The notes under the pieces were generated by a model that was given only the letters and a program-made list of their open reading frames with translations, had not been told where the DNA came from and did no database searches. A DNA stretch of 64,000 bases from NCBI GenBank assembly GCA_003252395.1, contig QKEL01000008.1:186001-250000 (forward strand), written 5' to 3'. The translations under genes and the position numbers were made by a program. Positions 18,841-19,240 of the stretch are shown piece after piece; the stretch's first letter is position 1, and every line of letters begins with the position of its first letter. The stretch is from Spirochaetales bacterium. Lineage in GTDB: Bacteria; Spirochaetota; Spirochaetia; Treponematales; Treponemataceae.

Positions 18841-19205
18841 GGGCGGCACTCCTTTCGTCACGGATTCCGACAATACCAACCAGGGGCTGTCGGTTTTGCG
18901 GGGACGAAACCCTCCATGCCCGTCTGGGCCGGATTTGGGCTCCGCGGTTCCACCCCGCTTCGTTTCCCCGTGACGGGGAGCGCACTCATCGCCGTTAACG
19001 TACGGATGACGGCCGAGGCTAGTAACGGTTTGATACACCGCGTTCACGCCGGCAGCTCGGGAGTGGTTTTCGGTCCGTCGAACGCCGCGATATTCCAGCC
19101 CGCGAAATCGCGTACCGCCCCTCGTAGGGATTCGGCGGCGTTTCTTCCGTATCGCTTCTCTGGTGGCGCCCGATGGGGACGTACTCGTCTCCGTCAATGC
19201 TGTTA
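18841..19205 (-). ncRNA. T-box riboswitch leader of thrS, translational type
   Basis: Stem I: CGGAG (19193-19189) pairs with CTCCCG (19063-19058, one bulge); AGTA (19185-19182) faces specifier codon ACC (19067-19065, threonine); GTCC/GGAC closes above the loop. AGAGA (19161-19157) and GCTG (19099-19096) match the conserved distal elements. The T-box bulge TGGAACC is at 18952-18946. Antisequestrator: GCGGGG (18958-18953) with CCCCGC (18903-18898), and GCG (18945-18943) with CGT (18906-18904). Sequestrator: TTTCGTC (18909-18903) with GACGAAA (18859-18853), which abuts the AAAGGAG ribosome site, and CCGACA/TGTCGG inside it. The two states share 18906-18903, so they exclude each other. No T tract follows, so control is likely at translation. 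Bulge base A predicts discriminator U73 on tRNA-Thr. Confidence 0.88.
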
Positions 19206-19211
19206 CCAAAG

Positions 19212-19240
19212 AGCTTACCCATGGTTTATATACCTGTCAA
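19212..19240 (-). promoter_or_regulatory. thrS promoter
   Basis: On the minus strand, a perfect TTGACA (19240-19235), a 17-bp spacer and TAAGCT (19217-19212). Transcription would begin near 19205, about ten nucleotides before T-box stem I, which is the usual arrangement. Confidence 0.65.

Follow-up and report, generated by a model that had tools for sequence, protein, structure and literature searches.

Most known T-boxes come from Gram-positive bacteria, and a thrS gene of a Spirochaetales bacterium raises the question whether its leader is such a riboswitch and by which output it acts. The window, i.e., the whole stretch of 64,000 nucleotides that was analysed, contains on the minus strand of positions 18841 to 19240 a leader of approximately 365 nt between a promoter-like element and thrS. 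Its features are collected in Table 1, and the class I T-boxes of Firmicutes, e.g., that of Bacillus thrS (RF00230), serve herein for comparison. The reading proposed is that of a T-box with a long Stem I that would sense uncharged tRNA-Thr(GGU) and whose Stem III would sequester the ribosome-binding site (RBS), such that translation of thrS is controlled; its probability is put at roughly 0.6.

Table 1. Features of the thrS locus, with positions in the window and the basis of each assignment
Feature	Position	Strand	Basis or remark
Sigma-70-like promoter TTGACA-17-TAAGCT	19212..19240	-	directly 5' of the leader; sequence
Promoter hexamers TTGACA and TAAGCT	19240-19235 and 19217-19212, spacer 17 nt	-	sequence
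T-box riboswitch, RF00230 model 1-219 of 219	18922..19206	-	63.1 bits, E 4.1e-13
Stem I 5' strand: GGAG and specifier-loop side with AGTA	19182..19192	-	RF00230 alignment, sequence, helix conservation
AGTA	19185-19182	-	sequence
AGAGA, distal Stem I element	19157..19161	-	Rfam alignment, coordinates
GGGCUGGAAU, which we take to be the distal Stem I GCUG element (GCUG 19099-19096)	19092..19101	-	sequence
Specifier codon ACC (Thr)	19065..19067	-	in GAAA-ACC-A; Rfam alignment, coordinates
Stem III (GCGCUCCCCGUCACGGGGAAAC)	18962..18983	-	contains the two 5' strands of the proposed sequestrator as well; core paired in 5/5 aligned leaders
Helix A1 5' strand GCGGGG	18953..18958	-	sequence, helix conservation
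T-box bulge UGGAACC	18946..18952	-	UGGA complements U73-CCA of tRNA-Thr(GGU)
Helix A2 and A1 3' strand (antisequestrator)	18898..18945	-	A1 3' CCCCGC 18903-18898; folding, alignment
UUUCGUC	18909-18903	-	sequence
Accessory hairpin CCGACA..UGUCGG	18867..18893	-	between antisequestrator and SD; folding
Predicted sequestrator helix H2, 3' strand UCCGUGACG	18856..18864	-	pairs CGUCACGGG 18975-18967 of Stem III; folding
GACGAAA	18859-18853	-	sequence
Shine-Dalgarno (SD) AAGGAG	18849..18854	-	sequence
Predicted sequestrator helix H1, 3' strand GGAGUGC	18846..18852	-	pairs GCGCUCC 18983-18977 of Stem III; folding
AUG of thrS	18840	-	sequence
thrS, threonine--tRNA ligase, 585 aa	17083..18840	-	TIGR00418, 690 bits, E 2.3e-207

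The TTGACA hexamer is invariant in all 12 aligned leaders of f1, the family including the window, and the T-box core is likewise common to them. Among the matches kept, the nearest named relatives of the window ThrS are found in Treponema and other Spirochaetales assemblies, with 63–68% identity. Both this enzyme and its paralogue on contig C7 of the same genome seem to start at the editing domain, and presumably the N-terminal TGS domain would thus be absent.

That the leader is a genuine T-box riboswitch is as good as certain. RF00230 matches over its full length with 63.1 bits and an E value of 4.1e-13 in a scan of 1.1 kb (3.0e-13 in a search of the whole genome), and the gene that follows belongs to TIGR00418, which bears out the earlier note in placing a T-box before thrS in a spirochaete. 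The Infernal search on the minus strand proposed there thus gives a significant match, though below the Rfam gathering threshold of 93 bits, and because of this a default cmscan of the window lists nothing. This threshold is a curator's cut-off and no biological feature, and it is a strict one: only two of the five control genomes that match at E 0.001 pass it, and 25 of 392 genomes of the phylum exceed it. The AGTA, AGAGA, and GCUG elements, the ACC specifier, the UGGAACC bulge, and the A1 helix GCGGGG/CCCCGC, all named beforehand, are present in the minus-strand sequence. The distal Stem I exceeds the model with 59 sequence positions versus 11 in RF00230, and Stem II is aligned by the model. 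By its parts, the leader appears to be a complete T-box, one with a long Stem I.

Covariation in related leaders had been suggested as a further check, and throughout the phylum, pairing is maintained in both A1 and the Stem I helix. Herein, the GGAG/CUCC helix below the specifier loop has standard pairs in 258 of 260 cells, counted in the 65 of 75 thrS leaders that were parsed (maximum of 500 shuffles, 247), and A1 has them in 359 of 375 (maximum of 500 shuffles, 340), with shuffles that ignore relatedness and leaders that are not independent of each other. Changes that preserve the Stem I helix include GGAG/CUCC to GAAG/CUUC, and columns 59–62 of A2 are altered on both sides in some of five aligned leaders. 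At the position of the accessory hairpin, a hairpin of differing sequence is predicted in the five related leaders that were folded.

The ligand is very probably tRNA-Thr(GGU). The specifier ACC matches the amino acid of the downstream gene and occurs in all 65 parsed thrS leaders of the phylum, with 10 of the 75 unparsed by the pattern. For 30 tRNA loci out of 44 tRNA matches in the genome, ARAGORN gives one tRNA-Thr(GGU) in addition to CGU and UGU isoacceptors, and a pattern search of the whole genome also yields a single tRNA-Thr(GGU) gene. The four tRNA-Thr genes read carry U73, assigned by eye and for GGU also by script. Hence, the UGGA bulge fits tRNA-Thr(GGU), since U73 pairs with its A; the earlier note had itself staked its reading on this base.

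Across the phylum, base 73 of tRNA-Thr(GGU) is U in all 67 genomes in which a thrS leader and this tRNA were found. The bulge reads UGGA in 28, UGGU in 32, UGGG in seven, and UGGC in one of the 68 leaders compared, the tRNA being found for all but seven of the 75. The fourth bulge base and U73 hence form A–U in 28 leaders, G–U in seven, and a mismatch in 33, the last being the 32 UGGU leaders and the one UGGC leader. A covariation of this base with base 73 was considered and is not found, as base 73 is always U and the bulge base varies. A passage of PMC7583486 describes a purine after the specifier as conserved in T-boxes. This rule fails in the spirochaete thrS leaders, where the base following ACC is A in 37, G in one, C in 26, and U in one of the 65 parsed, i.e., C or U in 27.

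Between the bulge and the start codon of the window leader, neither of two terminator rules finds an intrinsic terminator, in agreement with what had been noted before. Because of this lack, translational control is likely. Of the earlier claim that uncharged tRNA-Thr(GGU) switches translation, ACC, U73, and the missing terminator all stand; translation is the most likely level of output, but one that we infer, as we do the dependence of the leader on tRNA. Among the 15 thrS leaders of f1, seven have a terminator by rule (L001, L003, L005, L007, L009, L093, and L097) and eight have none, i.e., six with a UGGA bulge (L002, which is the window leader, L004, L006, L008, L010, and L094) and two with UGGU (L092 and L096). 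All 75 thrS leaders divide into 47 with and 28 without a terminator by a rule that is imperfect, since by eye at least six of the 28 (L135, L137, L141, L166, L175, and L189) have hairpins with broken T runs. An earlier rule gave a false match in L004, and the terminator classes as well as the helix definitions were set after inspection of the data.

The genome contains a second T-box (L001; G000:C7:169697-169972, positions 1501-1776 of the locus) in front of the ThrS paralogue (L212), which shows 52% identity. It likewise has an ACC specifier, a UGGA bulge, and thrS downstream. Unlike the window leader, it has an intrinsic terminator (CCUUCGGGC/GCCCGAAGG-U8) and shows no pairing of Stem III with the SD in the model. 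Contig C7 is probably part of the genome, since it bears the only tRNA-Thr(CGU) and the only tRNA-Cys among the 30 tRNA loci scanned (44 tRNA matches). With and without terminators, the leaders of one genus form a natural series in which a transition from one output to the other may be followed. As a side observation, two thrS genes of related genomes (L208 of G007 and L209 of G005) are mosaic: their residues ~180–480 are 70–98% identical to the window ThrS and 37–57% to the C7 copy, while their ends are nearer the C7 copy (60–87%) and their leaders are of the C7 type. Judged by sequence, it looks like the catalytic core was recombined between the thrS paralogues.

In the proposed mechanism, Stem I would read the anticodon of the tRNA via ACC, and the UGGA bulge in the antisequestrator would read the free U-CCA end. 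Without an uncharged tRNA to stabilise the alternative, both strands of Stem III would pair with the RBS by helices H1 (GCGCUCC/GGAGUGC) and H2 (CGUCACGGG/UCCGUGACG), and the SD would be hidden. Docking of uncharged tRNA-Thr would lock the discriminator, consisting of Stem III, A1, A2, and the 3' end of the tRNA. Stem III would then fold on itself, the RBS would be released, and thrS would be translated. Charged tRNA could not lock the discriminator, and Stem III would close the SD. In the sections of PMC7583486 dealing with known T-boxes, the discriminator is described as Stem III, A1, and A2, Stem III as strictly required to hold the tRNA end, and the off-state as being formed from the 3' strands of A1/A2. 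If the mechanism is true, Stem III, a part of the charging sensor, would act as anti-SD, which would be a new coupling of tRNA sensing to translation. The expression platform of the window T-box is probably a new variant.

A role of Stem III as the switching strand, and with it the predicted off-state, is regarded as moderately probable. The idea arose from folding the window leader itself, whose unconstrained full-length fold has Stem III paired to the RBS. The Stem III–RBS duplex amounts to -34.0 kcal/mol, and none of 1000 shuffles is as good. Among the other terminator-less UGGA leaders, the shuffle p is 0.006 for L004, 0.008 for L006, 0.006 for L094, 0.275 for L008, and 0.53 for L010; herein, flanks are permuted by single letters such that dinucleotides are not preserved, and the related leaders are not independent. 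When the six Stem IIIs and the six RBSs are swapped, 15 of 720 pairings do at least as well as the true one, which is itself counted; the corresponding figures out of 720 are 54 for six terminator leaders of f1 and 354 for six leaders of f3. For all 75 thrS leaders, a probability P of pairing between the SD core and Stem III was computed, and it is highest in L002, L004, L006, L094 (1.0 each), and L008 (0.91). Genera g1 and g3 have six terminator-less UGGA leaders, of which these are five, with ensemble gains of 12.2, 10.6, 12.0, 14.3, and 6.5 kcal/mol, respectively.

Folds of the whole leaders give the same picture for L002, with P 1.00 whether 12 or 60 nt of coding sequence are included, and L004, L006, and L094 agree. 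L008 has 0.91, or 0.37 with 60 nt of coding sequence, and L010, the sixth terminator-less UGGA leader, has 0 and thus no Stem III–SD pairing. Six of the seven f1 terminator leaders served as controls and show P 0–0.06; L097 (P 0.71) was left out of this set. In the whole-leader folds of L002, L004, L006, and L094, A1 stays formed. Hence, two states of Stem III compete, the hairpin and the anti-SD strand. The relatives contain their own versions of the helices: GUGCGCUCC/GGAGUGCGU and GGAAUCGAA/UUCGAUUUC in L004, GUGCGCUCC/GGAGCGCAC in L094, GCUCC/GGAGC and GGGAAUC/GAUUCCC in L006, and GCUCC/GGAGC and UGUCGCGG/CCGUGACG in L008. The Stem III of the terminator leaders L001, L003, L005, L007, and L009 reads GCGGCCGC where the window has GCGCUCCC. 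The register of H2 differs between species, and RNAalifold does not recover the Stem III–SD helix from an alignment of five of the six leaders, in which the SD of L094 is misaligned. In four or five of the clade's six leaders, a switch by Stem III is predicted with good support.

The terminator-less f1 leaders of other genera, L092 and L096 with their UGGU bulges, have P 0.00. Among the 47 terminator leaders, four have a shuffle p below 0.05 (L171, 0.005; L097, 0.015; L093, 0.018; L147, 0.039), and four have P above 0.5 (L182, L097, L142, and L177) with gains of 1.1–2.4 kcal/mol, except for L097, whose 6.5 kcal/mol equals that of L008. Before its AUG, L097 (G024) carries a stretch that is similar to a part of its Stem III (CUGUCAGGGG), and its bulge and AUG are 315 nt apart. 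The median shuffle p is higher in the 28 terminator-less leaders (0.56) than in the 47 others (0.25), so the Stem III–SD effect is not general. As a rule for the whole phylum, Stem III pairing is ruled out by the shuffle tests and the pairing probabilities over the 75 leaders. When the Stem III–RBS pairing is penalised, the GGAG of L002 still pairs, now with a CUCC inside the gene (SD core free, 0.08), and tRNA binding would need to make up for the gap of 12 kcal/mol. A first model of the off-state, in which the A1 5' arm and the bulge were barred from pairing, was abandoned: it changed access to the SD little and also barred real partners.

The sequestrator of the earlier note was another one, namely UUUCGUC from the 3' strand of A1/A2 pairing with GACGAAA beside the SD and thereby preventing the antisequestrator from forming, in the way of the terminators of known T-boxes. 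This switch obeys the canonical T-box logic, the perfect 7-bp helix exists in the window sequence, several terminator leaders of f1 have GUGACG or AUGACG close to where the 3' arm of the terminator starts, and in a short construct (bulge to AUG+30) forcing the helix costs only 3.6 kcal/mol (-54.1 versus -57.7). Its -8.2 kcal/mol are, however, matched by 23.5% of random spacers (p 0.235), the 7-bp helix is not kept in the five other terminator-less UGGA leaders (p 0.38–0.61), and in the full leader its formation costs ~16 kcal/mol (-144.4 versus -160.3) and breaks A1 and most of A2. Hence, it was rejected as the main switch, being no better than chance and unconserved in related leaders, and such a role is improbable. 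The argument that four shared bases make the two states exclusive is likewise unsupported; the better supported off-state leaves A1 formed. Alternatively, the A1 5' arm and the bulge (GGGUGG..CC) could pair with the spacer between SD and AUG (GG..CCGCCC), which would turn the tRNA-binding bulge into the anti-SD. This complementarity has p 0.037 in L002, 0.000 in L008, and 0.036 in L010, and it is higher in terminator-less leaders (Mann-Whitney p 0.0014 by leader, 0.012 by genus); the random spacers of both tests were drawn from local composition, which does not preserve dinucleotides. It is, however, absent in L004, L006, and L094 (p 0.38–0.48), the terminator leaders L001 (0.031) and L007 (0.033) score as well, the full ensemble pairs the SD with Stem III instead, and forcing it in the full leader costs 12.9 kcal/mol. 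It is given as little credit as the helix of the earlier note.

An output without SD sequestration was also considered, in which the T-box would gate termination, by Rho or otherwise, or the processing and decay of the RNA. Rho needs no intrinsic terminator, and terminators are present in nearly half (7/15) of the thrS T-box leaders of f1, but a transcriptional output would leave the complementarity of SD and Stem III unexplained and is considered unlikely, if somewhat less so than either of the other sequestrators. The score under the Rfam cut-off might finally suggest a decayed T-box without a working switch. Against this, the functional motifs are intact and common to members of the genus with ThrS 79–93% identical, which makes decay highly improbable. 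The preferred reading thus remains the T-box with Stem III as the putative sequestrator.

Compared with known systems, the window leader resembles the class I T-boxes of Firmicutes in its long Stem I with AGAGA/GCUG, AGTA, the specifier, Stem III, UGGN, A1/A2, and the synthetase gene downstream. It differs from them by the spirochaete host, by the terminator that was not found, and by an off-state predicted to form via Stem III and not via the 3' strands of A1/A2. With the translational (class II) T-boxes of actinobacterial ileS, it shares the lack of a terminator and, as predicted for the window leader, an SD that is sequestered in the off-state, whereas its gene is thrS, its Stem I is long, and its sequestering strand is probably another one. 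Instead of the short or ultrashort Stem I of actinobacterial class II, it has the AGAGA and GCUG elements. Most translational T-boxes are without the elbow-binding part of Stem I according to a section of PMC7583486, and the translational class in TBDB was, by its description in part of PMC7778990, sought in Actinobacteria and among class I matches with truncated Stem I.

The window T-box is not a single case, since 72 of 392 genomes in the phylum sample match (E 1e-5) and 75 of 91 T-box loci precede thrS. Matches occur in nine of 12 genomes of the genus of the window genome (E 0.001) and in 16 of 274 of the family (E 1e-5). The 91 loci were assembled from the genus, family, and phylum searches, and the 75 thrS loci (71 by blastp and four more by tblastn) come from 74 genomes. 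A T-box core lies no more than 700 nt upstream of thrS in two of eleven spirochaete loci taken from named contigs; the other nine lack one in this range. The literature search found no report of spirochaete T-boxes, while TBDB or the Rfam hit list may hold some. PMC10319736, on Borrelia, contains the word T-box a single time, among its references, and the single mention in PMC8632094 concerns Listeria. The survey PMC2494555, in the part concerned, covers six spirochaete genomes and gives T-boxes in none, and the phyla named in the corresponding part of PMC3766115 are only Firmicutes, Actinobacteria, Chloroflexi, and Deinococcus-Thermus, plus Geobacter. Spirochaete T-boxes hence bear on the open question whether T-boxes are ancestral or were spread by transfer. 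The remaining 16 of the 91 (L091, L095, L128-L132, L136, L157-L159, L173, L176, L192, L194, and L196) precede other genes. From a reading of some of the proteins, without a family search, these look like serS, threonine dehydratase, a sodium symporter, AMP-ligases, a tryptophanase-like lyase, trpB, and an aminotransferase.

Leaders with a UGGU bulge show a feature of their own. A GUAC lies within 16 nt before AUG in 19 of 32 UGGU thrS leaders (15 of 24 genera), e.g., L146, L154, L184, and L199, and in none of the 43 other thrS leaders (15 genera). In the background, it occurs at three of 156 other gene starts from seven of the same genomes. UGGU T-boxes also precede other genes in 16 cases, and none of the 13 whose gene start was found has GUAC. 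The GGUACC of the UGGU bulge can pair with the GUAC next to the SD, which fits a UGGU bulge that doubles as anti-SD. The fourth base of UGGUACC mismatches U73 of tRNA-Thr despite this pairing. The energies of the GUAC–bulge pairing in single leaders are mostly not significant, and seven of the 19 GUAC leaders are classed as terminator-bearing. GUAC was dismissed as a rule for all terminator-less leaders, as it is absent from the window clade and from f7. Moreover, L016, a Treponema thrS for which 700 nt were searched and no T-box core was found, has GGUAC as well.

Tentatively, and with somewhat less than even odds, the spirochaete thrS T-boxes may be taken as what would be a radiation in which the output changed several times, by terminators, by Stem III as anti-SD, and, in other families, by the pairing of UGGUACC with GUAC, with two outputs in one genome. 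As part of this tentative picture, one genome might switch one of its two thrS genes at transcription and the other at translation, both by the same tRNA.
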